Below, piece after piece: positions 1-24,475 of a stretch of DNA of 64,000 nucleotides (its first letter is position 1; each line of letters begins with the position of its first letter). Below the pieces are notes generated by a model. That model did no database searches, had not been told where the DNA came from, and saw only the letters and a program-made list of their open reading frames with translations. Origin of the DNA: Cenococcum geophilum 1.58 (Eukaryota; Ascomycota; Dothideomycetes; Gloniales; Gloniaceae); contig KV748234.1 of assembly GCA_001692895.1 (NCBI GenBank), positions 434,001 through 498,000 on the forward strand, in the 5' to 3' direction. The translations under genes were made by a program, and so were the position numbers.

Positions 1-1666
1 CGTTTTGTAACCGAATATCTTTTAGGTCTGAAGTGTGACTCCTACCAACAAAATTAAGGCTGTGCAGGCAAAATTACTCCGAATCAGCGTATTCTAAACT
101 GAATCTGAGGCCTTTAGATTGGAACCGAAGGACCCCTAATTTATGATCTTTTTCACAATATATCAGCACTGGTTACATGAAATAAGCGCAGCTGGAACAT
201 ACGGCTGCACACTGATGAGCCGTGCGCTCGCTCACAAGGAACTTCTGCTGAAGCACTCGTATTCTCGGACATACAAGACATACAACCTCGGTGACGGCGC
301 GAGAGTTGAGAAGAGGCTCAGAAATACTAAAGAATGACCTCGACAGCCAGTCAAAAAGATTCAGGACTAAATGGTTGCTCCGCGTACTGTACATGTACAT
401 CACTACGCCATACTCTAGATGGATCGCTGGGTAAATTCTTCAGACTGCAGAACACAGCCGGAATCTCAAGCCCGAAATGACTTCTCATGTTCCGAATCGC
501 ATAAATAGTGTTAGAGATGCACTTGAAACATGGTAAATTATGTAAGTCTCGATGGCTTCAAGGCTTAATTTTGCTATGATTACTAAAAGCTGTGACAAAA
601 GGAGCATTAGAGGAGCCGCATGCCAGCACGCCAGCATAGCTTCCATATGGCCGCTTGCAAAGGCCCTATTGTAGGCTCTTCTAATATCATATAGTTAGCG
701 TCAGCTAATGTGCAGCTAGACCAGGGTGAAATACGGTCGCAGATCCACAGTTGATTGGATCAAAACGTTCCGAAGTCACGAAGAGGAGATTTGTTACACG
801 GAAAGGCCTCCTGCAGACTAGCCATATGATGTGGGGAGAGTCTGTACGAGATGAAACTCGCTACAGCTAGGCTAGTGAGCATAAAATAACTAAATCCGTA
901 TGGTCTACTTAATGACAACTTCCCAAGTCTTTCAGCCCACCAAAGGACTTGAACTTGTCACCTCACCTCGACTGCAGAGTGTATCTCAAACGATTATTAG
1001 CCTTAGGAAAGTCCGAAAACTTAAACTTGTAAGCAAACCCACTTCTTACTAGACCAGTCCCTTCACGGCATGACTTGTCTTCTGCGCATGAGTTATATAG
1101 TCAGCAATTTACTTGATGGCTTGTCTGTAGTACTACCGCTGCATCCCAATCTGCTAGAAGGTAAAATTTAACGGTCGTACAGTCTGTCTAAGCACAAGAG
1201 ACGACATATACATTTCGGCATCCGAATTCTGAGTAATGCGTTACATAAAATCCCACATCCAATGGATCTATCGCAGAGACCAACCCATGGAACCCCTCGC
1301 ACTAACTGCTCGACTACTGGTCCGTCAAAGCCATGCTCGCCGGCTACATGCAAGGTATCGTGTAACAGTGAGAGAATTAGACATCAAATGGGGGTACACC
1401 AGTAACGCATATAGGGATAAACGTTAACAAGAAAGAAGATATAAGTCGGAAAGGAATGATAAGAAGAATGAACCCAGAGTCTAATTGGCGCAAACCAAAC
1501 CAAAAAAAAAATTTCGGCAACTAGAAGAAACCGAATCGGAAATAATCCGGCACAAGTCTAGTAAAATCGGGATATATGTGGCCGTTCCGCGTGCGCAGGT
1601 ACAGGCGTCAAATACTCCCCCCGCCTGCAACAACTTCCATGCTTATAACCTCAATGCTTTGCTCGT
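1..1666. other. No supported gene
   Basis: This stretch holds only short open frames on both strands with no recognisable protein, no convincing splice structure and no obvious repeat. Composition is ordinary, unlike the RIP-affected right side of the window. It lies beyond the 3' end of the GH76 gene, so it may include that gene's terminator. I see nothing else in it. Confidence 0.5.
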
Positions 1667-2734
1667 TCACGATACTGCGGCGGCGGCGACAAGGCAGTCA
1701 ATCGCGGAACTCTGGCTCGGCGCCGTTGCTGTCGCAAACGGACCTTGCCAATGTGGCCCGATAAAACCGGTTTGCGCATCGCGGTCGCTTTTCCAAATCG
1801 AGTCCGCGTTCTTGGTCAGGAAAGTTACGAAAGCTTCATTCGGAGCCACCTTTTGTAATGCGGCTAGGTTGCGGGTAAAAATGCCTTTGAATTGTGCAAG
1901 GTTGTTGTCTTCATCTATTCCGCCACTCTCTGTCAAAATGCCATTTGAGTCTGTGAGGGCTTTAAGAGCAGCATTAGCGATAGTGGTTGCCTCGGTAAGA
2001 TAAGAGGAGTCGCCGGTTGCAGCGCTGAGTTCAACAAGTCCACCGAGAACAACGCCTTGGTTGTAGGTGAAGACGGTGCCACCATTGTTAGCACAAGTTA
2101 TCTTGTTGATGCCATCGTTAATAGTGTTAGCGGAGTTAATCACGCCAGAGTGTGAGAACCAGTCCCATTCGGCCTGTGCCCAAGAGATACGGTTGGCTTT
2201 TTGGTCTGGGACGCGATTCGCAAGATGGGCGGCTACAGAGAGGAAGAGCTCGTTCGAGATAGCGGAGATGTAGCCTTTGGATTTGTCCCACCAAATACCG
2301 CCCTTGCAAGGCGTACTCCAACCAGTGGTCATGTCGTCAAAGATTGTGACGGCCGTATCAAGGTAGTCTTGGTTACCTGTGAGATCATATGCTGCAATCC
2401 AGCCTAGGGCCCACCAGCCCTCATCATCATAGTAGTCATTGATGTAGCCCCCGTCGTTTGTACCCCCTCTACCAGGCGCTTTTGAATATGTCGTGGAAAT
2501 AATTTGTTCTGCAGTACTCTTGAATGAATCGTCAATCAAGCCAAGATCCGCAATGGCTGTCATAACGTTGGCGCTGTTCCACCACAGACCGTCCCAGAGG
2601 CCAGTACTTGCGTTGTACCATTTGTCATTCAAAACAGTGATCGCGCTCTCAGCATTTGCCGCATAGTCTGCTGCGGAAATGGAGGATATATAATGGAAAG
2701 TGAGGATAGGGAAGAATGATGTGAAGTATTTCAT
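1667..2734 (-). CDS. Secreted GH76 alpha-1,6-mannanase-like protein
   Basis: Single-exon gene, 355 aa, stop TGA at 1667-1669. The open frame extends upstream to 2992, but I choose the ATG at 2734 because a typical signal peptide follows directly (MKYFTSFFPILTF.., cleavage likely near SISAADY). The body matches glycoside hydrolase family 76 (endo-alpha-1,6-mannanase; Dcw1/Dfg5 relatives). Visible are an early WDGLWWNSAN stretch, the paired acidic residues in NDYYDDEGWWALGW (Asp103-Asp104, which align with the catalytic pair of the family), GGIWWD, NELFLSVAAHLA, the Tyr-Asn-Gln-Gly motif of the second half, and a late GPHWQGP. Family members cleave or transfer alpha-1,6-mannan and some link GPI proteins into the wall. 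This one ends at an alanine-rich tail without a clear serine-rich stalk or GPI signal, so a soluble secreted enzyme is more likely. Its upstream region contains an inverted-repeat element (3006-3299). The family call is firm; the substrate is inferred. Confidence 0.88.
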   Translation of the reverse strand: MKYFTSFFPILTFHYISSISAADYAANAESAITVLNDKWYNASTGLWDGLWWNSANVMTAIADLGLIDDSFKSTAEQIISTTYSKAPGRGGTNDGGYINDYYDDEGWWALGWIAAYDLTGNQDYLDTAVTIFDDMTTGWSTPCKGGIWWDKSKGYISAISNELFLSVAAHLANRVPDQKANRISWAQAEWDWFSHSGVINSANTINDGINKITCANNGGTVFTYNQGVVLGGLVELSAATGDSSYLTEATTIANAALKALTDSNGILTESGGIDEDNNLAQFKGIFTRNLAALQKVAPNEAFVTFLTKNADSIWKSDRDAQTGFIGPHWQGPFATATAPSQSSAIDCLVAAAAVS

Positions 2735-3005
2735 GACAGCTTCAAGAAGTAACGACAAGACAAGTAATTGATTTCGGGTGTCTTGGGTAGTTCGGATTTT
2801 CTCAATGCGATTTTGCGAAAAATTAATGAAGAATAGTATGAAGGCTAGGCGAACTAGTAGTAAAAGTAGGAAATTCACCGCTCTTATTGTTTTTGAACAT
2901 GACAGCAAATGCACAGCCAGTATCAGGCGTCGACAAGCTTCTTGGCCTAGAGGAACAGGCTCTGCCAGCATGGCTGGCTGTGTATCCAGCACAGCCTCCA
3001 GGGAA

Positions 3006-3299
3006 GTATCCCTTAACCCGCCGGAAAGCGTCCTACCGTTATCGATAAGGACTAGCCAATCAGATCAACCAAATCGAATCGTCGTAGGAGTAAAATCGGG
3101 CAGCGGCCATGGCTTCGGTGGCGGCTTTTCAGCATATCGATTTGGCTGAACGTTATACTGAGTCGGTTGGACAAGGCCTATATCATTGGAAGTATGATTG
3201 GAAGGCATTTTTAATAGTAATTAGCTATACATGTTATTTTCATTCTGGTGTTCAAGCACGGACCAGCTTCCGGTAGGACGCCGGCGGGTTAAGGGATAC
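3006..3299. repeat. Putative MITE with inverted ends
   Basis: The left end (3006-3038) reads GTATCCCTTAACCCGCCGG then (AAA)GCGTCCTACCG. The right end (3271-3299) is its reverse complement apart from a 4-bp gap. The enclosed 290 bp has no coding potential. No clear target-site duplication is visible, so this could also be a stem-forming host sequence. It sits about 270 bp upstream of the GH76 start codon and so inside its probable promoter. Confidence 0.45.
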
Positions 3300-6200
3300 G
3301 TACAAACCTGCTTAGGAAAAGGACGGGGTGATTCTAATTGTTGTTCTGGACTATGAGAGGTCGTAGAGGCCCATGACGTGTGGATCCATGTCCGGAGACC
3401 CGTGGCGCTGCCAGCATACATTCTCATATGAGATGGATTGAGAGGCACAGTAAGACTAGGCAGTCTCCGGTCGCCCCGATGAATGTTTTAGCCCTGCAGC
3501 GAATCTATCGTACATATCGTACGATAGAAGCTTTGAGGTTGAATCCAGTGAAGGACCGTCTCTTTTACCCCATGGACGATACAATACCGAGAGAGATGGG
3601 GCCATAGCGACGCATTGAGAGCATGAAAACTCTCTCTACGACAAGCATGATTATCCCAGGTTCCTGAAACACAGACATGTCGTGGAGGCAGGATTCTCCA
3701 GTCTTTGTCGTGGATTTTGGCCCGTGAGCGTGAGCCGGAATATAATAGGCCCTGCCCCGAGAGCCCTATGAAGAAGCTTATGTCGTGTGACGTGGTGACA
3801 ACGGACAAATCCCATCCCTTAACCTGCTGAGGTGCAATGCCAAGCTGCACCGTGCACCAACACCGAGAACAAGATGGGGCTGTTCTGTGTGTAGGATTCC
3901 GTTTTGCACAATAGGGCCCTGTTGGAACACCTGGCAAAGCTCAACTCTAAGGACTAGCTTACAAATATATATATACATAGAAATCACGGATTTGAATAAC
4001 CTCACGTCGCTGCAGTTTTTATCACAGTGACCAAGAATTAGGTCAAACGAGAGCCTCTAATTGGCTAATCCCTATCGATAACCGAGAGCCAGAGTCAGCG
4101 GGAAGGGATAGCCTTTGAGCACGGATTAAGCCCTTTTTAAACCCCCCATCTCGCTGCGCCCTGAGTACAGATAAGCTTTTAATAGTGCTGTTCGAACGAC
4201 TTTGCCTTGTGCGGCATAGTATGAGCCTTGCGTAGAATCCTACGGGCCTGACTTTCTTCTGACTGTCTATTCAGTCATTGTCCGGTTGATTTTCTTTCCA
4301 AGTTCTCACGCTCGGTATCACCGCGCCACAGTCTGTTGCTAAACTTGTACAACTTGCGGGGGAAATATTTCTGCTATGCTCGCCTTCGAGCTAGAGAGCT
4401 CCTAGCAAAGATGATCGCTCCCACTTCGATAGGTAAAACCCTGCAAAATTCTACCTGCGTGATAACCGTGCGTGCTTTCTTTCACATGGCGAAGCCGACG
4501 GACCGTTCGCCACGGTTTCACGGTGCTTATGGTGATTATTTCCGGAGGCCGTGAGTGGGTACGAAGTCCGTTGGAAAGTAGTGAAGTAGGTATCTTATAT
4601 CTTTGGGTTTCTTATGCCAATCCTAGAAAGCATCTTCTTGAAGCATCTCTCTTCACTACTATTTCTTAAAGCCTTTTTCTAAAGACTCACTCTGGGAGCT
4701 GAGCTCCAGCTGGTCCAATCGTTCCACAACATGCAGCGATTTTTTGGCAACGGCCCAACCTATATCCGTCTTGCTCGGGAGTCCAGAAGGGCAAAGCTAC
4801 GCGCACGAATCCAAACACGACGAGAAAGAATGCGAGCAACAATCACAAAGAACTTCACTTTCTTTGCTCCAGAGGGCATGATTAACCAGTGGAGGATAGC
4901 CTTTGGTGGAATGTACTGAATCCGTTCGGTTATTATTCAACATAAATTTAATAAGGTTGCATGCACAATTGATTGCGCTTGTTCGGAGGCTATTACTTTC
5001 TAAATTTCAAGCTACTTCGTCGTTGATCAGATATTCCCAACCCCAACTTTCTCGCATCTCTTGAGTTCAACACTTTACACGAAAGCCCTTAGGCTTCACT
5101 GGCTTAGTCGTAGAGAGCAAGTTCAGCAATCTCGGCTGATGAGCATCTCCCTGCACGCCCCAAGTACGGCATCATCATTGCGTCTGATGTGACACGTCTT
5201 GGAATTTCCCAAGTCCACTCGTTTGACTCTTCCTTACAATCACGCTTTTTAGCCATCCTCCGGCTTGGTTTCGCCTCTGTATCTTTGGAGTTTATGGGCT
5301 GGTTTAGGTTCTAGGTCGTCTTTGCACACACCATTGGTGAGTGAACTGTTCCTCCATCAATATTCCGATAGAGTATGTGGACTAAAATTTTTGCTAGAAG
5401 ACCCCTTCGGAGCTACCAGCGTACCAAGTGAACTGTTTCGTTTGTTCTATCAACTGTCTGTATTTGCACTATCATTACCACGGTCTGTCGGGCCACCTGA
5501 CTTCCTAACGACACTCTCATTTCTCGATACACACAGTAATCATCTCCAACACCTGGTCAACGAAATGCCACTTGCATACCAAGCGCTGATTGAGGTTGGG
5601 AGGCTCCTATAATGCACATGAGCAATTCCCCGGCAGTGGCCGGGATTTATCGCCTGGTTCAGATATCTGCGCACACTTTGAACAATCGATTGTGTCAAGG
5701 TTGAGGTGTAGAGTGTAGTGGCTTGCAAGAAGCGCCTTGAGGTCAAGCGCACAGAAGCCTACATCCAGTATAGGGAAGTCTAGGACATGGAAAATATCAA
5801 GCCATATGTATACGGAAGGTTCTGCAACGATTTCAAAGAGGTGTCGGAGGCAATCAGCAGACGCTGGAAGAGTCGCAAATATCCCAAGCCCGAAACAACG
5901 TCAGATTCCCGAAAATCGGCTTCTGCTCTCCTGGTTTGAACCTTATTGTAAATTATAGTACTATCCCACCGTAACGCTGCGACACATTCTATCAAGTCAG
6001 CGTTTGGGAGAAATCTTACATGTCTAACACTAACACCGCCTGATAGGGTCGTTTTTTAATTACTAGTGTCTTCCATAAAGAGCATACTCTTTTGTTGCTA
6101 GCTTGATAGTTCGGAAGGATTAGCATGTATATTTTGTTTTCTGTAATCCAAGAAATCTAAAGTTGGAGAAAAGACGGCTTGCTGTTTCAGCTGGATTTGT

Positions 6201-7267: not shown

Positions 7268-8103
7268 ACTTTTCTTCGAAATGCCTACAAACGATATTTC
7301 TCGATTGCCATGGATTGATGGAAACTTGTTTTGGCAAAAGTGACTCTTCATTGATTGCTCCTAGGGAAAACACACGGGCGGTGACTTAGCTTTGTATTAT
7401 ATCCTACATACTTCATGAATATCATCATGAAAGTCTGGAAAGGTACGGCTCATTGTTGTGACTGCTCATGAAATTTGTGGTTTGTTGCGATTGCCTCGGG
7501 ACGTTCGAGACATGAATATGGCATGCTATGCAAAAATAGCCTATGAAAAATTTTCTATGTCTGAATTTGGAGTGACTTCACTTAAACTTTCACTCGAAGG
7601 CGTTGATATGTCCAAGATGCTTGCCTATGCTGGCAGGAGAGTATACAAATAATCATGTGAGGCCTGACGCATTCGGTGTCTATCAGCTTTCGCGAAACAG
7701 TAGCTTCGTTGCCTGTGTCCCTAGACGAACGTTTTCATTAGCTCAAGACTCTATATGATATATTTCATGCGCTGTTGATAAAGGCGTCCACACAAGGGGC
7801 TATTGGTTTGGCATTCGCTATTCTATATGGAATTTAATGAGCCCCTGAAATACTTTAGAACCACGGATAAATTTGTATGGTATCTAAAGCGACGAACGAG
7901 GTATAGGTAGGGTACCAAAAATTGTGTCGACGCCTAGGCCACGTAAGAGATAGTCGCAGTCATATTACATGAATTCTACTACAGATATCAGTACGAACTT
8001 GTACCAGAAGGCGAGAAAGCCTTCCAAAAGCTCGAAAATTATTAAGTATCCTATAATGTCTAGGAGGGTTAGAATGTAGAGCACTTTAGTGAATGCTTAC
8101 AGT
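7268..8103. other. Intergenic, no supported gene
   Basis: 3' flank of the HSP12-family gene and of the WBP11-like gene, which converge here. A 64-codon frame at 7458-7652 has no recognisable features. Nothing else stands out. Confidence 0.4.
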
Positions 8104-9171
8104 CTACAAGTCTTCATCCTCAACCTCCTCAATTTCTACCCTTCTCAGCTCCGTTTCAGCTCTATCCTCCTGACTCTTCGGGTCTGTAATCTGCCCCTTC
8201 ACCTCCGCAGCCATCATATTAAATTCGGCTTCCTGCGCGGCCGCTTCAGCCGATTCCTCAGCATCCGTGTTCTCTTCCTGTATCTCTTCCATCTCCATCT
8301 TCCTTAATTCTTCCTCGAACCTCTCCTCCTCAGCATCTAGATCCACTTCCGCACCGTCGGCCTGCCCAGTCATCATGCCGTACTCAGCCTCCTGTGCCGC
8401 TGCCTCAGCCGCCTCCTTGGCATCTTTATATCCTTCCTTCTCCAGCCGCTCTAGTTCCTCGGGCTCTAACAACCTGCCCTGAGTCTGCCCTTTAACTAAC
8501 CTGAGCTTACTCTGAACAGCTGTAGGTACGAAGCGACTCGTTGCCTCCTTCCGAAGATCCCGCACTATTGGGGCAGCCTCATACACGGTCTGAGCGATTG
8601 GTTTGGGGGGTAATGCGTGCGGTACGCGGGGTTCCCCCAGTGGGGTTTCGTTGGGATTTTTGGGGCGAGATTGGCGCCGGCGGTCCTGGCGGGGGAGTGG
8701 CGGAGGTGTATCTTTAGGCATAGGAATATTGCGAGCGTCTTCATCTGTTTCACTACTGGACTCCGCGTCACTTTGTTGACCGGCCCCATTATCTCTCCGC
8801 CGTTTGCCTAAGATGCCACCGCTCCTGACGTCACTCTTCTGATCTCTATTCCTTCTCTCGTTACTGTTTCTCTGTTCTCGCTCTCCACCTCCAAATTTTG
8901 GGGCCCTATCCCCCAACGCATCCCTAGCCTTTCTGATTGCAGTGATGTCTTTCTCAAGTTGAGCGAGCTGTTGTTGATCTCGTGTTTTCAAGCCCTCGGC
9001 CTGTTCAAGCGTTTTCAAGTCATCAATCTGGCGTTGCAAGCGATCAGGGTTACGTCGGGCGAGTTTCTCGATGCGTTGAGTTTGGAGCTGAGCTTTGGAT
9101 TTCTTAACGGCCCGCGCCTTTTCGGCTTTCCGGGCCGCTTGGGCCGGGTTGATTGATTTTTCTTTCCCCAT
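8104..9171 (-). CDS. WBP11-like (WW-domain-binding protein 11) splicing factor
   Basis: Single exon, 355 aa, ATG at 9171, stop at 8104. The N-terminus (MGKEKSINPAQAARKAEKAR, then KLARRNPDRLQRQIDDLK) is the conserved WBP11 domain: a lysine/arginine-rich helix that ends in NPDR(L/I)Q. A basic stretch LGKRRRDN (121-128) is a likely nuclear signal. A proline motif TPPPLPRQ (155-162) is the kind bound by WW and GYF domains of spliceosomal partners. RFVPTAV and GRLLEPEELERLEKEGY (from residue 233) match the conserved C-terminal block of fungal members. Odd feature: the acidic tail holds a tandem duplication, residues 255-300 and 308-354, each with AEAAAQEAE(Y/F)xMM followed by an EEELRKMEMEE-like end. 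It probably acts in nuclear pre-mRNA splicing. It is divergent from the La-related gene with only 228 bp between start codons. Confidence 0.85.
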   Translation of the reverse strand: MGKEKSINPAQAARKAEKARAVKKSKAQLQTQRIEKLARRNPDRLQRQIDDLKTLEQAEGLKTRDQQQLAQLEKDITAIRKARDALGDRAPKFGGGEREQRNSNERRNRDQKSDVRSGGILGKRRRDNGAGQQSDAESSSETDEDARNIPMPKDTPPPLPRQDRRRQSRPKNPNETPLGEPRVPHALPPKPIAQTVYEAAPIVRDLRKEATSRFVPTAVQSKLRLVKGQTQGRLLEPEELERLEKEGYKDAKEAAEAAAQEAEYGMMTGQADGAEVDLDAEEERFEEELRKMEMEEIQEENTDAEESAEAAAQEAEFNMMAAEVKGQITDPKSQEDRAETELRRVEIEEVEDEDL

Positions 9172-9399
9172 ACCAGGGGGCTGAAATGATAGGATATGAG
9201 GATCGAAGGGATGCTGGCGAGGTGGCGCGAGGTAGATGGATTTGATTCAGGAGGGGGTGCTGCAGCAGTGAATGTCTCCAGGAACTCGTAGAAAATATGA
9301 TGCGGCCAGGAATTCCTGCATGCAACAATGTGGTCTGTGCTCATGCTCTCCAAGTCGCACACAGTTTGAGCCTAGCACCCGATATGACCAGCATAGGCA
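9172..9399. promoter_or_regulatory. Shared divergent promoter
   Basis: The 228 bp between the ATG of the WBP11-like gene (9171, minus) and the ATG of the La-related gene (9400, plus) must hold both 5' UTRs and both core promoters. No TATA box is visible on either strand, which fits housekeeping RNA-processing genes. The extent is inferred from the gene starts only. Confidence 0.5.
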
Positions 9400-11089
9400 A
9401 TGTTTCTTCCCCGTGTGCTTCAGAAAAAGCGGAACCTGCCTTCAAAGACAAGTCTCAAACTTTCAAAACGTCCTGAAGTCGCTACAGATCAATATCCTCT
9501 AGCTAATCCTGCATCAATAACGCGTGAGAGTGAACCACCTACGAAGAGACCCCGGATCCAATCGCTGGATATCGATGATGAGTATCTTGAACAGTTGGTC
9601 TGTGGGATTGAACTTGTTTTCACGGACTATGCACATCAGGACGATGAGGGTAGAGCCTGGTTGAAGAAATATGGAAGGATACTACATGGAGACAGTGGAT
9701 GTGAGTATTCTCTGCCTTATTGGTCACAAATGAATCTCTTGATGTGAATTTTTGTGTCTCGAGTTCGTTATATCTATGTGCACAACATGTCCAATTGGTC
9801 TAACTGACATCCCAGAGCAAAGTACTGACTTTGCTTTTGAAACATAGACATCCACCTTTCTGTACTCCTCGGCCACTCTAGCCTCGCTGGCCTCAAGCCC
9901 ATTCCGACACAGCATCTTATCCGTCGAGCTCTGCAATCATTCTCATCTCCCGACCTTGAAATAGCAGGAGAGGGTTATTTTGTCCGTCGTCGAGCTTCAA
10001 CATACCCTTTGCCATTTATTCCAAAAGATGCAAGTAGCAAAGTCAATGATGATGGCTTGAGCTTCTGGGACGAACGAACACTATATGTAGAACCGCATCT
10101 ATCAACGATGTGCAATAGGCCAGCAACTGTGGCATGGTGGTTGAAGAAGCATGGAGAGTTGAGAAGAAAATGGCTTCCAATACAGGCTATTAAAACAATA
10201 GCGCCTAGCTGCGCGTTTGTGGTGCTTAGCGGGGCCAATGCCAAATTAGGTTCTAGCTGGGAAAGGTGGGCTGGCAAGAGATTGCCCCAAAACTGGATTA
10301 CCATGACGAAGTAAGCTGATCTTTTCTTCTCAAATTGTTTAGAGACGTAGGCGGGGCTATAGTGAGTGGCTTGGAAGGCTTAGCTAATATCTTCTTTCGT
10401 GCCGTAGGGCGGAACACAACCGTCGTACAAAGGAGTATTTATTAGTTCTGGATAACAAGGAATCCGGATCACTAGCACAGAGCGTGGTTCGGAGGCCACG
10501 CAATACGGCTAGGAAGGACATCGGCCTCTTTCCTTCCCTTGTCGAAGACATTTCTACAAATGCTTTTCCGGCGCACGAGCACCCACCAAACACAGCCAAG
10601 CAAACTACTAACAAATCTTCTTGGGCGTCGGGTTTTTCAAGCTCCTCGTCATCTGATGGTCCTATAAGCCCTCAGGACCGGCATAAGTCTCTGGTTCAGC
10701 TGGCCAACCTACCGTCGGACAGTTCCGAGACTGCAATTAAGGCCTTCGTCATAGGTATCTCGCGGCGACCCTCAACCGTTCAAAGCATATACTACAAGCC
10801 TGGCGATACGACGGCTATTATTCACTTTACAGATGTCGAAGATGCAGAGCTTGCAGCACAGGCTCTCAGTGGAAGGGGCTTCAAGAATGCCTCAGTAAAC
10901 TCTAAAGTGGAAGCTAGGTTGATGACCTCATTTAGTCATGTAGATCATGCAGGCTTGGTTGACCAGAGTAAAGACGGTGATAAAGGTCCTTTAGAAGCCG
11001 TAATGGCTATCTCCAACGCTCGCGGTGGCACTACCAAGAAACGTAGGCGTAAGCGCAAGAGGCCAAAAGGGTGCGCAATAGACACCTAA
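9400..11089 (+). CDS. La-related RNA-binding protein (La motif + two RRM-like folds)
   Basis: Three exons, 481 aa: 9400-9700, 9848-10310, 10408-11089. Introns are 9701-9847 (GTGAGT..TAG) and 10311-10407 (GTAAGC..TAG), and both keep frame. Exon 1 gives a low-complexity start, then a degenerate La-motif winged helix (about residues 62-150) ending GYIHLSVLLGHSSLAGL.. and LEIAGEGYFVRRR, which matches the end of HTH-La domains. RRM1 would be LSFWDERTLYVEPHL onward. A second RRM-like fold begins KSLVQLANLPSDSSETAIKAF and has the IIHFTDVEDAELAAQAL helix. The C-terminus is a basic nuclear signal, KKRRRKRKRPKG. La motif, RRM1, C-terminal RRM is the layout of genuine La and of LARP7/Pof8. The degenerate La motif favours a LARP7-like telomerase or U6-associated protein, but that is inference. 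The start codon is uncertain: another ATG at 9384 opens a frame that soon stops. Confidence 0.62.
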
Positions 11090-11924: not shown

Positions 11925-14265
11925 TCACTCCACCGTTTCTTGACCAAACAGCCTCGCATAAAGCCCCCCTTCCCTCAGCAGTACATCGTGCGTCCCACTC
12001 GCCATTACCATTCCCTTATCAAGCACGAAAATGGCATCAGCGGCCCTTACCGCACCCAACCGGTGCGCGACACTCACCATAATCTTCCCGCGCATAAGCC
12101 CCTTAATACCCGCAAGAGCTTGAGCCTCGGTCTTTGCATCTAATGCGCTCGTAGCCTCATCTAGCAGCAGCAGTCTCGGCTTCCTCGCAAGAGCGCGCGC
12201 AATGGTGGTGCGCTGCCTTTGTCCTCCTGATAGCGAGCAACCACGGCTGCCGATTGGCGTGTTGATAGCTTCCAGCAGCGAGCGGTTTCTTCGATCAATG
12301 CGTTCCTTGCTGTTGCGCGCCCCCCTAGTCCAAGCAGAATGTTCGAAGCGATCGTGCCGGGGTAGAGGACGGGCTTTTGGGAAAACATAGCCAACGGACT
12401 GGCGGTAATCTGCCAAGCGGAAGCCTTTCTGGTCTATCCCGTCAATGAGGATTTGACCGCTGTTTGGGTGGAAGAACTGCTCGAGAAGGGTGAGTACGGA
12501 GCTCTTTCCACTGCCGGACGGGCCGACTAAGGCAACGTGTTGGCTAGGCTGGATGGTCAAATTGAGGTATTGCACGATAGAGATTAGCGGTGCGGAAGGG
12601 TAGCTGAAAGAGACATGATGGAACTCGATGAGGCTAGATTCTATACCGCCCGCCTTTCCGATATTTGACCATGGATCCGGGTGCGGTTTACGGTGGTGCA
12701 AAGTCATGATCGCTGTTGCAGCTTCTTTGACGGTGGCAAAGTCGCATAAAGGAGGGATTCCCCGGCTTCTTGGGCGCCGAAGGTGATGGCGATGAAGCAG
12801 GCTAAGAGGTCATACGCATCGATGTGGCCTTTGCGGATAAGAGTGGCGCCATACCATGTTGACGAAGTAAGTGAGAGACCGAGAGAAAGTATAGAGCCCC
12901 GCTGTACTCAAGACTGAGGCTGAGACTTTGCGCGAAATTGTGGAGAGTATTTCGTGGTAATTTTGCAGAATATAACTTTCCATGTTAAGAGAGCATGCCG
13001 CCCGGATCGAAGAGAAGGCCTCGTTAGTAAGTCGAGTAGAATGCAGGTATTCGTGCTGCATCTTGGCTTGAAAGTCTCCAAGCACCTCCGACCGCAGATA
13101 ACCTGATCCAAGGAGAGCGGGGATTGCACAGACAAATTGCCAGGATTACAGCAAATAGAATGTTGACCACTGCGCCCGTCCCAACTTTACCGAATAGAAG
13201 TTCCTTATGTCCTTGCCAGAAAGCTAGTGCATATGCGGAGAAAAGAATGATGGGTATGAGAGCCAACACGATTGCTGTCCAGAAGGTAGAATAATACCCA
13301 GGACTGCGCGTGCCGTCAACTTTTTCTCATACATTTCGACGAGGCTATCAACTGGACCGAAGCTTTGCGCGATCCTTGGGAAAGACAGAATGCCTGTGGT
13401 AAGGCCCTTGGCTGTAGAACCGTTGTCTAAAAGCTCCTTCATGTGACAGTCGATAATTCAAGAGGTCAGGCTGGTGAAGATGACGATGGCGGGCAGAATG
13501 GTATAGACGACCAGTGCAAGCCTCCAGTCCTTGACAAAAGCGATGATAATGGCGGTAATGAGTGTGGATAGCGAAGACAAGACAACGCCGACCTGCTTGG
13601 AAATGCCCTCTTGGATGACTTTCATATCGAATGAGAGGCGCGCTTCGATTGTTCCTGGTGCTGTTGTATCAAAAAGCCCATGTTTTGGGACAGTATGGCT
13701 CGCATGTAGGTTTCTCGTACCCTGCATGTAGTGTTCTCTCTAGATACAATCCAACAAAAGGTAGAGACGTATGAGGACACGGTAAATCCGATACCTAGGT
13801 AGATCAGATTGACACGGCGCTGGAACAGGGAATCAACCTGTCCGCTGGCCAAATTGGTGAAGGTCGTGGTCAATGATCCGAGCACAACTGCCATGAGCGG
13901 CTGCATCGAATTAGCAAGGGTTATGGTGAGCTATGCGTGGAGGATAAATGCTTCTTACCAGCGCGATTCCGGAAGCTATAACACGAACACGCCGCAACCT
14001 TGCAGTATCATAGAATGCCAATGTACGACATCGAGTGTTTGCTTCCCTCCACTTTCTGCCTCGCTTGCGGAGTAGCGCCGGTGGGAAAGAGGTTCTCGTG
14101 TACATGTTTGTCTGGACTTTGAGCAAGTCTATATAGCTTGAGCGACTCTTCGGACTGGGCGGCACTGACGACGGATTTCCTAGACACCGATGACCTCTGA
14201 GATCTATGGAAAGCGCGTCCAGCGACTTTGACAATGCTCCGCATCTTGAAACGAGCTTCTACCAT
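11925..14265 (-). pseudogene. ABCB-type (MDR) transporter pseudogene with TMD1-TMD2 junction
   Basis: Pieces of an ABCB multidrug transporter lie in changing frames from 14265 to 11925. The best start is ATG 14265 (MVEARFKMRSIV..). A real intron is visible at 13901-13958 (GTAAGA..CAG) between ASGIAL and PLMAVVLGSLTTTF, the usual entry to TMD1. TMD1 follows (GIEARLSF, VIQEGISKQVG, YALAFWQGHKELLFGK), with frame breaks near 13680, 13300, 13150, 12850, 12750, 12370 and 12280. Near 13140 TMD1 passes directly into the intracellular loop of TMD2 (AIPALLGSGYLRSEVLGDFQ), so NBD1 and most of TMD2 are missing. A single NBD ends the gene: Walker A GPSGSGKS (about 12505-12528), LSGGQRQR (about 12216-12235), Walker B LLLLDEATSALD (about 12140-12172), H-loop VSVAHRL, stop at 11925. 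A full ABCB transporter is about 1300 aa; this locus would give about 700. It is likely dead; the indels could partly be sequencing errors, but neighbouring genes are clean. Confidence 0.82.
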
Positions 14266-17192: not shown

Positions 17193-20100
17193 ATGCCGCT
17201 CATCGAGGACGGAAACTTTGTGGCTTCGGCGATGGAGACAGGAACCGTGAACATGCACAGTTATTCTGCCCAGAATGATGTGGTGCTTCCAAGTTACCCC
17301 TTGCCATCTGTGGCATCCATCCGTGAAGAGATCGACCGGATTATTACTACCATGCTGGATGAAAAGACACGCAACAAATTCAAGAAATCACTAAACGTTC
17401 TGGACCTTTGCCTGATGCCAGCATTCCACGCCGTAACCCAAGGCTTGGAAGCCGAAACAATAGCGACCGGACGCAATTGGGCAACGACTCGATTCAAGGC
17501 GCTTTTGTTGGCGCTGCGTGGCCCCCTTTCCAACACCAGCCTGACCTTTGCGCTCAAGAATCCGGCGGAGACTCAAGCCAAATCAGCAGCTACTCTTTTG
17601 CACGGGCTTGCTGAAGTTTACATCTCCAAATCGACACTGGACATCATCGGCAAAAATGGAGCGGGTAAGCGCTTCGAAACCAAGCAGCTAGCAGAATTGT
17701 TTGCAACAACCCGTAGGCCAGGTATCGAGAGCGACGAAATGAAATCATTCCCCCTCTCACGGCATGTCATTGTCTGGAGACATGGTCGTGCCTTCTCCAT
17801 TGACATCCTGGATGCGAAGATGCAGCCCATGAGTGTTGCGAAGCTGTCCGCTCAGATTCAGCGCTTGGTCAACCACAGCGAGGCGTCGGACTCGTTCCAG
17901 AGCGTCGCTGGCATGTCTACGTTTCTTGACAGGCCGCAATGGGCTGCGATTTACGCCGAGATGAAGGCAAAGAACCCGGAGTCGATTGAGGTGATAGAGT
18001 CTGCCATTACAACTGTGGCGCTCCACGAATCAGTCGCACGCAGTCAGCAACGACGACTGGAAGTGGCTCGAGCTGACTCGCAAGACGTATATTCAGACAA
18101 GACGCTCGGCTTCTCCGTCTTCCCGGACGGCACCCTTGGAGGAAGGATCGACCATACGGTGGCTGATGGAGGGGTGATCGTTCGATTTCTCCGGGTGCTC
18201 CATGCCGCCATGAGCAAATGCTCAGCAGACGTGGATACAGTAGCTGAAGGGTTTCCGCCTCCAGAACTTCCCCTTCACAGCATCCCGAGTGCCGTTGTGC
18301 CTCCCACTAGCCAACTAGAGAAGGACCGTAAGACTTTCGATATCGCTCAGCCGCCGGATGTTCTAGACCTTCTTAAGTCGGCCTCGCTCCTCAATGTCAC
18401 AATCCAGTTTGCTTTCCAGGCTGCTGTCTTTGGTGCGACTGGCAGTACCGGAGGCCTTATGGTCGAGCCGATGTCAGTCCGGGTATTTAAGGACGGCCGT
18501 TGCGACCCTAATTACATCGTTACAGACGAGTCTGTGACCCTCTTCCGGGCGATGGCTGCTGGTGAACCGGACGAGACGTTGGCTCAGGCATTTGCCGCCA
18601 GCATGCTCGCCTATAAAAAGCAGGTCCGGCGGACCAGAGATGGTGCCGCGATCGGACCAGGCATCATGATCCTGCGAAAGGTCGTCGAGAGTTTACCCGA
18701 GTCGGAAGACAGGAATATCGTCCTGCAAGTGCTCCAGCTCTTCCGGCGCCCATCAGCCTACTTCACCGGCGTGCCATACGCAGACTTCGTCGAGGCGGTG
18801 GAAGCCAACGTTTTCGCTCCCGATCAGCTCGCCATAACGTACATTGGTAAAACAGACAGGATCACGGCGTGTCTGGCTGGTACTGGCAAGTTCGCTGGCC
18901 AACTGGACGCCATTCGCCACCTCTTCCTGAAGTATCTCCAGTCGCTAGGTGTGGTCGCCACAGCCATTGCGAGCGTAGAGCAGATGTATCCGGGTAACGG
19001 TTTGGCGGTGCTTGCGGGGTTCGCCAAGGACAAGGGCATGGTCGGGGAAGTTGGCTCGGTCGCAATTCACGCTGGAGCGGGAGAGGAGTTTGGGCTCCAA
19101 GCGCACGAGAAAAAGCTCGTGGAGTTCTTGCTTGCGGTTGTCGTATTTGTTGCGCGGCAGGACATTGCTGCGAAGCGTTCGGCGGTCGAGGTTGCTCAGA
19201 AGGCGGTAGTGGCGCTGGAGAACTGCATCTTCTTCAACGCGGGCAAGGGCGCTGTGCTCAACGCAATTGGCGAGCACGAGCTGGAGGCGTGCATCGTCGA
19301 CGGCGCTACGGGTGCGGCTGGCGCAGTTGCATGNGCGAAGACGCTGCGCAATCCAATCGTGGCGGCGCGGCTAGTGATGGACACAACGGAGCACTCGCTG
19401 CTGGCTGGAGACGCCGCGGACCAGTTCGGCGCCGAGCACGGCCTTCAGCTGGTGCCCAACGTGCACTTTAGCTCGCACGCGCGCAAGCAGCAGCGCCAGC
19501 GTCAGCACGAGGCAAAAACAACCGCTAACCACCCGCAGACTGTGGGCGCTGTCGTTCTCGATACCTTTGGCAGCCTCGCCGTCGCAACATCCACTGGTGG
19601 TGTCGTGAACAAGAAGCCTGGCCGCATCGGGGACACGGCCATCGTTGGCGCTGGGGTCTTCGCCGACCACCGCATCGCCGTCGCCTGCTCCGGCCAGGGT
19701 GATGCCTTCCTTCGCAAAAGCATTGCAAGCCAGATTGCCTACGGCCCCTCAGCCATGCAGACCGTCTTGGACGAGCTCCACAAGAAGGCGAGTGTCAACG
19801 GCGCTGTTCTAACCGTGGACAGCTCCGGCAGGGTACGCATCGCCCAGACGTCGGGCTCCTTTTTGGTAGCATCCAGCGAGAAAGGTCAGCCTATCTGGTC
19901 CAAGGTCGTTGTAAAGGACCGCACGCCTAGGGAGCTGCCTCCCTTCTTCGAGGACTCCAATGTCAAGGCAATCGTCTCTCCCAGACCAACCACGCCGGGT
20001 GACACTCTTGTACGCATCAAAGCCGGTCCGCTTAGGGCCTTATCCAGGACGTATTTCGCAGATACCCTCATTTCCATTAAGCAGGTTGCTACCGTCCTCA

Positions 20101-21907
20101 AGGCAAGCACGGATGTCCAGCGGATTGGCCTTGTGACCACGTCCAACGACGAAGTCCGCCTTATCCCGCTCCATGGTCTTTCAGCCGAGTGGAAGCCAGC
20201 TTTCAACCCAGAGGAGGAGTACCACACCTCTTTTCCCGGCTACATCTCTTCCAAAAATGGCCCGGAATCGTCAAGTGAGACCCTTACCAAGGTCCAGAAG
20301 GATATCACTAGGGACTGCGCTCCGGCAATGGACCTCACTTTCGTTGGAGAAAAGGGTAAAGATAATCTCTTTGCCAAGATCATCCGCGGTAAACTAGAGC
20401 AGTGGAGAGTCTGGGAATCTAAGACCCATGTCGCCTTTTTGACTCCCTTTGGGAATACTCCAGGCTTCACTGTACTGGTCCCTAGGAAGCATCTTAGTAG
20501 TGATATTCTGTCCATTGCTGACACCGATCTCTATGATCTGGCTGGCGCAATATACGATGTATCCAAGCTGATCGAGCAATCGGCCTTGGGCGTAACGCGA
20601 GTTGGTCTGATCTTCGAGGGCATGGAGATCAATTATGCCCATGCTAAGCTAATCCCAATCCTCGGCGATGAGCCGTGCGCACACGTAGAAGAAGCCTTCA
20701 AGGAGGTCTACTCTGGTTACCTGTCTTCCAAGCCTGGTCCTATTGCGCCATATGAATTTTTGGAGCCGTTACAACTAAAGTTGATGTCAACTACTAACAC
20801 TATGAGGACCATAGTTCCAACGAAGACTTGGCAGGAGTCGGCGAGCCACTACCTGCAAGCGCTGAAGTCGCCCTGGTACCGGGGAATCTTCCAGCTCCTG
20901 GACAGTCTCTTCCACGGAACAGCTGAGTACTTCAACAAGCAGCTGGCTTATAAATACGCCATCACACCTCTAACAACTGGTGAGTGAAATCATGAACGCG
21001 AAAAGGCTAGGTTTGTTGTACTTACATCTCGATAGACTGTATCTCCTCACCTATGGGTCTTGGCTCAGACAGCATGCCTGTTCCCATTGATCTCTTTGGC
21101 CAACAGACCTACCTTGCTGATAGTATGCAATTCACTCTTGAGTATCTCCTACGATTTGACAGCAAAGCCTCAGGTATGTACTACATCTCGCCATCCTTCC
21201 GAGGCGAAGATCCCGATTCAACCCATCTCAACCAATTCTTCCACGTCGAATGTGAACTCCAAGGGAACATAGATGATGCTATCGCCACCGCAGAGGGCTA
21301 CGTGGTTTCCCTCACGAAGACCATGTACGAGCATCACAAGGATCTCATTCAGCGATTTGCGGGAACAACCGACCATGTCACTTCCCTCCTGTCAACCTAT
21401 GATGCTAGTAAGGGCTTTCCAAGGGTTCCCCTCGACGCCGCTATCGACATGATGCCCGATGCCAAGTGGTGGGAGTACGCTGTTGCGGGCGAGCCTCGCC
21501 ACGGCCGCAAGCTCACTCGGCGTGGCGAGCGCTTCCTTATCCAGAAGTACGGCGGCTTCGTTTGGCTCACCGAGATGGACCACCTGTCGGTGCCCTTCTA
21601 TCAGGCGTACGTCGTGGGCTCCAACATGACCAAGGCTAAGGCCGGCGATCTGCTTATGGGCTTAGGGGAGACCTTGGGTATGGGTGAGCGCCACCTTACT
21701 GCCAAGCAAGCCACGGACGCCCTCAATCACCACGAAATCCCTCTGGAATCATACGCTTGGTACCTGGGTATCAGAGAGGCGCACACCATGCAGACAAGTG
21801 GATGGGGTATGGGTAGTGAACGATACCTGTGCTGGTTGCTGCAGCACGATGATGTTCGGGACTTTGCTCTTATTCCTAGGCTGAAAGGAGAGAAGTTCCT
21901 GCCGTGA
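17193..21907 (+). CDS. Fusion enzyme: carnitine acyltransferase / isoaspartyl peptidase / HIT-HIT / AsnRS-like core
   Basis: Two exons, 17193-20979 and 21036-21907 (intron GTGAGT..TAG keeps frame), 1552 aa, one N at 19334. Domain 1 (about 20-610) is a choline/carnitine O-acyltransferase: RIDHTVADGG carries the expected catalytic His (His321), and MVEPMSVRVFKDGR (from 424) matches the family's substrate-binding block. Domain 2 (about 620-895) is an isoaspartyl peptidase/L-asparaginase Ntn hydrolase: SVAIHAGAG, FNAGKGAVLN, nucleophile Thr783 in PQTVGAVVLD, STGG and PGRIGDTAIVGAG. About 935-1030 is a HIT-like remnant without the triad, and 1056-1170 a fuller HIT domain with YAHAKLIP (His1150 kept; first and third triad positions are Tyr and Lys). 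The last part (about 1180-1552) is a class II synthetase core like AsnRS: motif 2 SFRGE (Arg1318, Glu1320) and motif 3 GMGSERYL (Glu1524, Arg1525). No OB anticodon-binding domain precedes it. It is probably cytosolic; substrate unknown. Confidence 0.85.
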
Positions 21908-22158: not shown

Positions 22159-24475
22159 CTACGTATAATTCTCTGGCGAGTCGTCATCGTCACTCATATC
22201 CCACCTATCTCGAGCTGTTGAGTACAGGGCTTCCTCAAATCGAAATTGCCGTGTTGCTTCTGCCATCATTCTTTCAGAAATGTTGCCACCATCGAAGACT
22301 TCTGGTTGAAGGAAGACACATTGCTTGCTAGATATGCTCAAGCTCTGCCCAGTGTATCTGTTTTGATATGAACTTGCCATAAGGAGCTTAAAGACGGCTT
22401 GGAGCTTTTGATCTTTTACTAGTTTTTCTAGTTCGTGGACAACAAACTCAAGGTCAGCCCTCCATTCAAATTCTTCATACCAGTCAATACCATCAATGAT
22501 ACAGTATACTGGAATGTCTAGACGGAGCTGGCCAACCAGCATTCTAAAGACATAGCATAGGTCCCTCAGATTCCTCTGTTGGATCGCGTCTCGAAGTGAG
22601 CGTGTATTGATAAACTCGAGACTGAGAATTCCCCGCGTAGCTAGCTCCATGAGCATTTGCCATACAAGACTTCTAATCACTCCATTGGGGCCTCTTAGTT
22701 CGTCGCCCATCTGAGTATGCAGGCCGCAGAAGAAGTAGAGGGTTATTGCATCCTCCTGCACTTGCCCAAGGCTGGCCACAAGTGATGCACACAAGAATGA
22801 CATGGCAGATAGTCTCTCAGATCCAGACGATTCTATGTTGCCATTGACAATTAGAAGTCCTGGATGCTGTGGTTGAGACCAATGCCGGAATTGGTCTGTA
22901 CGCAGAAGGCTGTGCGCTTGGGCCATAGACATAGCACTGAAATCTTTGGCTTGTCGTAGGACATACTCGAAATCCAATGCTGGCTGCTGAGGAGGCACTC
23001 CGAGAAACTTAGTGAAGAGATCCTTGGATATCATGGCTTGGGACCTTGATTCCAGTGTCCGCGATCGACCCACTATAATTTATCAGCATACTTATAAAAC
23101 ATTTAAATAACGGGAACGTAAAACCTTCGAATCCTTGTCGAAAACCTTCTTCTTGTGCTTGACGGAAACGATCTTCTAGGAAAGGGATGAAAGCATTCAT
23201 AACGCTTCGCCCCTCGGCATGGGCTGCCCCTCTTGCGGCATTTTGCCTTGCGCGATTATCTTCTGCCTGTTTCTCAATGAAAGATTTCAGCTTGCTCTCC
23301 AAACCTTTCACTTCCCCGTATGTTTCCTCAACCGTAATGCCTGTTTTCTCCGTTCTCTGGTCAATGTTGTTCATTGTCTGTTGCACTCCTGCAACTTGGA
23401 CACTAGTTTTCAATGCAGCCTTGTGGCCCCCCGCTGCTTCATCCTTAATCTCTTCGCTCCGACTTTGGTTTACCAGTGCCAACTTGTGGGTAGCATCTGT
23501 AATGCCTTGTATCTTGTCTACCCTTTTTTGGGTGTACTCGGCCTTCTCTTTAAGTCCTAGAAACAATCCTTCCCAAATAGTCTCAGTGAGTCTTCGGAGC
23601 TCGTTGGCTTCTCCCTTCACCTGTGCTAAAGTTTCATCAATTTGTGCCGTCGAGGCCCTTTTGTTAGAGAAGAACGGTATTTTCCTCGCTGAGAAGGTAT
23701 TAACTGAATTGCCTCAAGACTTACACCTAATCGGTGGGTTGGGGGTACGTCTAACTCACACTCCTTCTCAGGAAGCAAGAAACCTATCAGGTCGGCAATT
23801 GCTCCCAAGAGAGTTTCATATAACTTAATGCAGCGAGTTTTCAGATGGCCTTCTTCCGGAAAACGTTTCCTCATCAACTGAGCTCTGATGATTATAAACG
23901 GAATTTCTTCAAACGCGCTGAAAATCTTCTCCTCCTTCTCGGCGGATTTCTTTGCAAGCTGGCCGTCCACTGTCAGATCATATCACTGAGAGCCCACTAG
24001 ATGTAAAACAAGTGTATCTTACTAAAAGGCAGACGGCTAAGCCGGCCTTAAGAGTACTCAGATAAGAATCGCTCGGAATCAATTCAAGCCATGNCATGGC
24101 ATCGTCAGCTGTTTTCCCCATCTTTCTCCAAAAGTTGATGAGATAACCCTTCAGACCCTCTGCTCGCTCTTTATGCTTGACATTTGCCTCATTCATCTGA
24201 TCAAATAACTTCTTCCAAGAACAGTTTTTAACATCGATGTCGAGGCGCGGACTGAGGTCTAAACCTTTGTATTGCAGCAAGGCTTGCTTCAGGTCTTCAT
24301 CACCCTGAAGAGGTTCCTCGTCGGGGTATTCTTCGGGAGAACTAGGCTCGAACTCGTCAGTTTTGTTATCATAGTTGGCCGGGACCGCTGGGATGTCGCC
24401 CTTGGCAGCCTTTTGCTTGATGAATTTTACAACAAATTGTCGCGTTTCCTCTTCTTCTCCTTTAATGGACGACAT
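22159..24475 (-). CDS. DUF7708/STAND-like NTPase (fungal NLR-type), four exons
   Basis: Minus strand, ATG 24475. Exons are 24475-24023, 23958-23760, 23688-23125 and 23072-22159; all three introns (64, 71 and 52 bp) begin GT, end AG and keep frame, giving 709 aa. Residues about 40-215 (WLELIPSDSYLSTLKAGLAV, EEKIFSAFEEIPF, KLYETLLGAIADLIGF) resemble the DUF7708 N-terminal domain common in fungal STAND/NLR proteins. A long helical, coiled-coil-like segment follows (about 225-405). The NTPase part has LLIVNGNIESSGSERLS (about 478-494) in the Walker A position, with Ser-Glu-Arg where Gly-Lys-Ser/Thr would be expected, and VYCIIDGIDWYE (about 594-605) as Walker B. The protein stops soon after, without ankyrin, WD40 or TPR repeats. 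One N lies at 24094. Such proteins are thought to act in self/non-self recognition; here nucleotide hydrolysis is doubtful. The transposon nest begins 150 bp upstream of its ATG. Confidence 0.72.

Follow-up and report, generated by a model that had tools for sequence, protein, structure and literature searches.

What might a cell do with a single protein in which an acyltransferase, a peptidase of the Ntn class, two HIT domains and a synthetase core follow one another in one chain? This question is raised by a gene at positions 17193–21907 (+ strand) of a 64,000-nucleotide stretch of Cenococcum geophilum 1.58 (contig KV748234.1, positions 434,001 to 498,000; the whole stretch is hereafter termed the window), for which an initial annotation, made from the letters alone, had proposed four enzyme classes in one product of 1552 residues. 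Judged by its homologues, the window protein belongs to a widespread eukaryotic family, found as a single conserved chain in fungi as well as in animals, and we tentatively read it as an enzyme that may act on aspartyl or asparaginyl nucleotides.

Exon 1 (17193–20979, +) is one open frame of 1262 codons that encodes residues 1–1262 and the first base of codon 1263, and exon 2 (21036–21907, +) supplies the rest of codon 1263 up to residue 1552 and the stop codon. Removal of the 56-nucleotide intron between them (20980–21035, +; GTGAGT..AG) joins both frames into 4659 nucleotides, which translate in frame into 1552 residues with a single terminal stop and no internal stop; an N at position 19334 turns residue 714 into an X. 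The stretch that spans the joint, TTDCISSPMGLGSDS, is unbroken in the alignment to homologues P0002, P0004 and P0014, and because these homologues read through the joint, the sequence comparison supports the 56-nucleotide intron as real. The single frame across one clean intron that the initial annotation had described was borne out by this splicing, with the coordinates of the intron mended to those given here. Likewise, the chain does combine a coenzyme A (CoA)-dependent acyltransferase, an Ntn isoaspartyl peptidase, HIT domains and a core resembling asparaginyl-tRNA synthetase (AsnRS), and His321, Thr783 with STGG and GRIGD, and the class II motifs 2 and 3 lie where they had been placed and are near-invariant in 72 aligned members. 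Of the Pfam families that had been anticipated, PF00755, PF01112 and PF00152 were returned, while HIT remained under the cut-off, though solved HIT proteins match.

The same domain order was found by homologue searches, each of which scored about 8000 candidates, in Talaromyces (the nearest named relative), the basidiomycete Amylocystis, the brachiopod Lingula and many ray-finned fishes (teleosts), and the same domains in environmental records; one of these searches was considered through the best 120 of its 2278 matches. A search from Lingula, considered through the best 120 of its 208 matches, added a gar with the same domains and a scorpion with the same domain order, the scorpion protein being 45% identical to that of Lingula over its whole length. 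Full-length homologues cover 97–99% of the exon 1 product at 32–52% identity. Exon 2, which encodes most of the synthetase core, is 61–67% identical to an environmental relative, a brachiopod, a basidiomycete and a fish (four comparisons), far above the conservation of exon 1, and by this measure the core is the most conserved part of the fusion. Residue counts given below refer to an alignment of 72 rows, which consists of 70 of the 75 homologue matches (P0002–P0073, at least 850 residues; P0001, P0069, P0072, P0074 and P0075 excluded), the window protein and a fusion from a contig filed as bacterial (L009, see below). The full set of six segments (the acyltransferase in two halves, Ntn, HIT1, HIT2 and core) is present in 38 of these rows; apart from six rows that are considered below, the remaining 28 lack at least one segment, and some of them are perhaps short gene models. 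The protein can be classed as a fusion enzyme that contains a paralogue of an aminoacyl-tRNA synthetase, and its family members stand in public databases as uncharacterised. An artefact of gene prediction or assembly that joined separate genes, a possibility for which the initial annotation had allowed, could draw on the one N in the coding sequence and on a gene model known from DNA alone. Against this speak the uninterrupted frame of exon 1 and the same-order homologues in unrelated eukaryotes, which make the fusion no accident of the gene model; we rejected the artefact, which we consider next to inconceivable.

The C-terminal part of the chain (20808–21907, +; residues about 1206–1552, with the intron inside) is an AsnRS-like class II synthetase core. 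Pfam, which was queried throughout with the two exon pieces separately, returned PF00152 (tRNA-synt_2) with an E-value of 3e-24. The motif 2 arginine R1318 (21200–21202) is present in 65 of 65 rows and the motif 3 arginine R1525 (21821–21823) in 62 of 63, and together with the core fold they place the domain in the class II DNK synthetase superfamily. In the flipping loop the genome's own aspartyl-tRNA synthetase (AspRS) has a Lys, whereas the fusion core has a Leu, as does the genome's AsnRS; this Leu is found in 65/65 rows. The motifs SSPMGLGSDSxPV and FRGEDxD/HLNQF are specific to the family. At E-values up to 1, Pfam found no anticodon-binding domain in either exon piece, and the core starts at about residue 1206, HIT2 ending at about 1200. 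The core reached 108 of the 342.6 bits set for the AsnRS equivalog TIGR00457, compared to 379 for the genome's own AsnRS frame. Its best NCBIfam matches are models named 'asparagine synthetase A', and the archaeal equivalogs of that enzyme scored below their thresholds (NF005053, 191 of 322 bits; NF005055, 166 of 389). Since a search of the genome (177 Mb, 162 contigs) showed that it carries other AsnRS and AspRS genes, we rejected a housekeeping AsnRS. The view that the core is an AsnRS paralogue without a recognised anticodon-binding domain and has a role outside routine translation is supported by the lack of a Pfam anticodon match and by these other genes, respectively. The core shares the class II DNK core with motifs 2 and 3 with AsnRS cores and with archaeal asparagine synthetase A (PRK06462; PDB 3p8t/3reu), and no anticodon domain was found in it, as in the latter; it differs from both in falling under the curated cut-offs, in its family motifs and in its fusion to other enzymes.

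HIT2 (20346–20792, +; residues about 1052–1200) looks intact, precedes the core and reads E1142-x5-Y1148-x-H1150-x-K1152 (E1142 at 20616–20618, H1150 at 20640–20642, K1152 at 20646–20648), so that the HxHxH triad of the HIT superfamily is represented by YxHxK. In the window protein the HIT profile scored below its Pfam cut-off (14.6 versus 21.5 bits, E 0.051) and the synthetase core took up the fold-search lists; many animal members carry a precomputed PF01230 assignment, and residues 1041–1206 match solved HIT proteins (3lb5 with E 7e-7, 3p0t and others). H1150 is conserved in 72/72 rows, and K1152 and E1142 in 71/71 each. The MccH clade, comprising phosphoramidases that cut a toxic aspartamide-adenylate, is marked by ExxxxxHxHxKxx with an essential lysine (PMC7157772). 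HIT2 has both the Glu five residues before the triad and the Lys that replaces the third His, and there is no His at the position of the N-terminal catalytic His; this comparison takes MccH from its published motif, not from an alignment. Judged by these active-site residues, HIT2 most likely functions in the manner of MccH, although two features that mark the clade are missing in most rows. It differs from MccH also in being part of a fusion and in standing in tandem with a mostly dead HIT domain. This neighbour, HIT1 (19926–20327, +; residues about 912–1045), was recognized by a one-to-one hhalign comparison of the profiles of residues 905–1050 and 1050–1205 (probability 99.9, E 1e-33) and by the strand-strand-strand-helix-strand-strand order that both repeats share in an AF2 model of the L009 protein (mean pLDDT 79.7), on which grounds we assign it as a second HIT repeat in a tandem pair. 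At its nucleophile position a His occurs in 7 of 71 rows and a Glu in the window protein, which is without the catalytic histidine, and H-x-K is kept in 3 of 71 (P0014, P0020 and P0023); by its residues HIT1 is a degenerate repeat, mostly without nucleophile.

The Ntn isoaspartyl peptidase/asparaginase domain (19050–19892, +; residues about 620–900) matches PF01112 (Asparaginase_2) with E 5e-63 and 213 bits against a cut-off of 27, and the solved E. coli-type enzyme 2zak with E 8e-45. Residue 783 (19539–19541), the nucleophile Thr at a T-V-G cut site, aligns to residue 1 of the beta subunits of solved enzymes, and T783, T801, R811 and D814, the latter two belonging to the R-x-G-D motif (GRIGD), are present in 72/72 rows. 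These residues, together with STGG and FNAGKG, are shared with the plant-type asparaginases/isoaspartyl peptidases EcAIII and ASRGL1, from which the domain differs by being embedded in a chain of 1550 residues. At position 833 the Thr of the solved E. coli-type enzyme is replaced by Ser in 68 of 72 fusion rows.

The N-terminal domain (17253–19007, +; residues about 21–605) has the carnitine/choline acyltransferase fold and matches PF00755 (Carn_acyltransf) with E 7e-49 and 167 bits against a cut-off of 22.3. Its H-x3-D catalytic motif (H321 at 18153–18155, followed by D325-G326) is intact in all 61 rows that have a letter at these positions, and an AF2 model (mean pLDDT 84.3) reproduces the full two-lobed fold of human CrAT (1nm8) with a TM of 0.77. 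Compared to CrAT in the alignment to 1nm8, the Thr of GRTD, which we take to be the carnitine-binding residue, is Cys or Ser (GRCD/GRSD) in 61 of 62 rows and Thr in one, and ESAS reads EPMS in the window protein. Because this carnitine-site residue is replaced, membership of the carnitine family does not imply the use of carnitine; we rejected a true carnitine acyltransferase, and the residues suggest that the acyl acceptor is probably a different molecule.

The order acyltransferase-Ntn-HIT-HIT-core of the window protein is that of si:ch211-256m1.8, called saiyan, the orthologue in ray-finned fishes, of which the full-length rows cover about 98% of the exon 1 product at 32–36% identity. According to two articles, saiyan is expressed in white and not in orange clownfish skin and had no earlier associated function (PMC12918100), and in zebrafish it is an iridophore marker for which a mutant phenotype was described, the gene being reported as required for normal iridophores, the silvery pigment cells (PMC12919797). 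The passages at hand treat saiyan as a pigment-cell gene only, without enzymology, whereas the fusion is read here as an enzyme from its sequence.

At the level of sequence, then, the chain contains four centres with near-invariant catalytic residues and one degenerate HIT repeat. Our preferred reading is a multifunctional enzyme that would act on aspartyl/asparaginyl nucleotides in the synthesis and trimming of an acylated metabolite derived from Asp or Asn, in specialised cells such as fish iridophores; we hold it to be plausible, with confidence that falls somewhat short of even. The AsnRS-like core would bind ATP and Asn, Asp or a close relative, form the aminoacyl-adenylate and, having no recognised tRNA anticodon module, pass the aminoacyl group to a small-molecule acceptor; alternatively, it might grip an aspart(am)yl-AMP made elsewhere. 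HIT2, with its active site of the MccH type, would sever AMP from the aspart(am)yl group, and HIT1 would probably complete the HIT pair. The Ntn domain would cleave itself before Thr783 and hydrolyse or transfer a beta-aspartyl (isoaspartyl) bond, and the acyltransferase would take an acyl group from CoA and hand it on, probably to an acceptor other than carnitine. We favour synthesis and trimming on two grounds: the core, with its catalytic residues retained, is more strongly conserved than any other part, and fish reportedly depend on the gene in one specialised type of cell. In favour of the reading as a whole also count the domain order common to fungi, Lingula and fishes, the near-invariant catalytic residues, the Leu of the flipping loop, the Glu and Lys of HIT2, the other AsnRS and AspRS genes of the genome, and the bacterial loci described below, in which a separate core is accompanied by HIT genes (four loci) or by an S66 peptidase (60 of 80 loci; the two compared matched MccF-like structures best). 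The initial annotation had read the protein as a pathway in one polypeptide that starts from Asp or Asn. One polypeptide, four enzyme classes and intact catalytic residues withstood our analysis, but a linear pathway and free Asp or Asn as the substrate were not established. The suggestion that the HIT domain edits or uses the adenylate can be narrowed to aspart(am)yl-adenylates rather than general editing, as HIT2 resembles MccH at its active site, and the enzyme class behind the proposed acyl transfer stood, though it does not imply the use of carnitine.

The main new idea is that this set of enzymes may correspond to the immunity set against microcin C. The processed payload of this antibiotic is an aspartyl- or isoaspartyl-nucleotide, against which bacteria protect themselves by acetylating it (MccE), by cutting its carboxamide (MccF) or phosphoramide (MccH), or through cleavage by MccG (PMC7157772, PMC9239234). 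The correspondence is an analogy in which only the HIT domain is homologous to its counterpart and the others match by reaction type. In its widest form, fungi and animals would share a one-chain aspartyl-nucleotide machine in which the core makes the compound, the acyltransferase caps it, the Ntn domain trims it and the MccH-type HIT domain releases AMP from the aspartyl- or isoaspartyl-nucleotide, or which neutralises such nucleotides; this wider idea we regard as doubtful.

Of 123 bacterial relatives of the core that were found, 80 loci were fetched. L009 aside, the cores in these loci are separate genes with 40–53% identity to the fusion core. The only fusion among the 80 loci is that of L009, a contig filed under Candidatus Parabeggiatoa, where the whole fusion lies without introns at 1–4500 with an open 5' end. 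A quick FastTree places it among the animal rows, and the GC content is 48–57% in its coding part compared to 39–43% downstream; it represents contamination or transfer and was not counted as bacterial evidence. HIT genes close to the core were found in four loci by similarity searches with HIT2, the HIT protein of L011 and that of L037: the HIT2 query matched L009 and L011, the L011 query added L029 and L037, and the L037 query added L055. The L011 HIT gene (7811–8251) has the full E-x5-HxHxK of MccH type in the same locus as a separate core. That of L029 (7615–8550) contains two HIT stretches according to Pfam and overlaps the start of the core frame at 8504, and this tandem HIT followed by the core is, by its gene arrangement, the order seen inside the fusion, as separate genes. 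L037 has a HIT gene at 12324–12827 and a weaker match at 9107–9574, just before the core frame at 9761, and the HIT gene of L055 (8411–9640), found by similarity only, ends 4 bases before the core frame. Three of these loci in which HIT genes adjoin a separate core are proteobacterial (L029 7615–9553, L037 9107–12827, L055 8411–10831). Apart from the identity of their cores and these HIT genes, the bacterial loci differ from the fusion in having separate genes, a peptidase of another family (S66) and, in the loci that were inspected, LuxC, LuxE, P-loop and APH proteins among the neighbours.

Other features of these loci are worth recording. A row of AsnRS-like core, methyltransferase and S66 peptidase recurs in different bacteria (L052 9677–12680, L033 9725–12776, L083 9809–12738). 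Compared with solved structures, the S66 proteins of L052 and L012 come nearest to Lmo1638 and structures of the MccF type, whereas murein tetrapeptide carboxypeptidases and LD-carboxypeptidase A rank behind these. In L011 (168–8251) and L012 (6156–17834) the core has LuxE or LuxC, a methyltransferase and additional proteins resembling class II synthetases (tRNA-synt_2b) in its vicinity. Those of L011 are LuxE, two tRNA-synt_2b proteins and a methyltransferase, while L012 contains LuxC together with S66, a methyltransferase and an acyl transferase; loci of this type look like natural-product or nucleotide-handling clusters. Downstream of the core in L047, L038, L044 and L071, and in L072, there is a gene set common to Streptomyces loci and a Poribacteria metagenome-assembled genome, with methyltransferase and S66; its families, named from L072, are an APH-like kinase, a Mrp/NUBPL P-loop protein and a pyridoxal-phosphate decarboxylase. 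Neighbours labelled 'unk432' and 'P450' were dropped, since most of them are frames that overlap GC-rich genes or lie antisense to them, and a PADLOC defence-system protein was rejected, as neither the two exon pieces nor two L052 proteins gave matches.

Several observations weigh against the preferred reading. In HIT2 the first triad His of MccH is retained in 3 of the 72 rows, with Tyr in its place in 68 and Trp in 1, and position 1092, which corresponds to Phe44 of MccH, is Phe in 17, Leu in 32, Tyr in 11 and another residue in 10 of 70 rows, and never His. Early-branching MccH homologues may have other substrates (PMC7157772). Because the readable triads of the L029 and L037 HIT proteins are HxHxQ and not of the MccH form, the MccH trait is not common to all HIT-core pairs; the pairs favour the pairing itself, and these triads go against a constant MccH type. 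Of the 79 loci other than L009, four showed HIT genes, one an Ntn gene (L049) and none an acyltransferase of the fusion type. An S66 peptidase occurs in 60 of the 80 loci and a methyltransferase of type A or B in 43 and 21, or in 22, 28 and 13 within 1.5 kb on the + strand, respectively, and these counts are raw frequencies without a background rate; L009, L011 and L049, among the 20 loci without S66, were inspected individually. The NCBIfam name for the S66 proteins of L052 and L033 is muramoyltetrapeptide carboxypeptidase, at scores far below the threshold (132 and 115 of 378 bits). The absence of the acyltransferase from 6 of the 72 rows, which retain Ntn, HIT1, HIT2 and core, casts doubt on a strict four-step pathway. 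Finally, literature searches, from which most subscription journals were out of reach, yielded no account of the chemistry of the fused enzyme, and no activity, substrate or product was found for any family member.

The same residues can be read in other ways. The protein might be a built-in detoxifier that neutralises microcin C-like aspartyl-nucleotide inhibitors of AspRS and AsnRS, with HIT2 cutting the phosphoramide (as MccH does), the Ntn domain the isoaspartyl amide (compare MccF/MccG), the acyltransferase capping the amine (compare MccE) and the core capturing the inhibitor. The MccH active-site residues of HIT2 fit this division of labour, and the enzyme classes parallel the acetyltransferase, carboxamide peptidase and phosphoramidase of microcin C immunity (PMC7157772, PMC9239234). 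However, the core retains its catalytic motifs and is conserved better than any other part of the chain, which exceeds what a decoy needs, the reported pigment-cell expression and requirement in fish suggest an endogenous job, and homology to the microcin C counterparts is confined to the HIT domain; we therefore consider detoxification as the main role unlikely.

Two further readings centre on the core. A tRNA-independent asparagine synthetase joined to an asparaginase would form a control unit for Asn and Asp, as could be suggested by the asparagine synthetase A models among the best matches of the core and by the asparaginase-like Ntn domain, and we judge it quite improbable. Fungi are also known to contain AspRS fusions that carry out tRNA-dependent aminoacyl transfer, such as ergosteryl-aspartate synthase. 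With this precedent, and with a class II DNK core in which motifs 2 and 3 are intact, the core might still charge tRNA and the protein might use the aminoacyl-tRNA to modify a lipid, a protein or a small molecule. The missing Pfam match for an anticodon-binding domain and the boundary between HIT2 and core, which leaves little room for one, argue against this, and we give it slightly less credence still.

The surroundings of the gene were also considered. Directly 3' of it lies an NPHP3_N/NACHT-like frame (22159–23073, −), and its upstream neighbours are ordinary: Wbp11 (8104–9171), an ABC ATPase (11925–12707) and GH76 (1667–2992, −). Among the 10 window frames examined, of which these four and a weak RRM could be named, nothing pointed to a pathway, and we rejected a pathway cluster in this stretch. 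Further downstream, positions 41509–41525 contain 6 Ns in 17 bases.

A large, widespread and uncharacterised group of enzymes, whose loss reportedly has visible effects in zebrafish, is now open to testing: specific candidate substrates follow from the HIT2 motif and the AsnRS-like pocket. The fusion links fungal metabolism and the colour cells of fish with enzymes acting on peptide-nucleotide antibiotics, and it draws attention to gene clusters in bacteria whose substrates may be molecules of a similar kind. If the wider idea of a shared aspartyl-nucleotide machine is true, eukaryotes would have a chemistry of the microcin C kind, and fish iridophores would depend on it.

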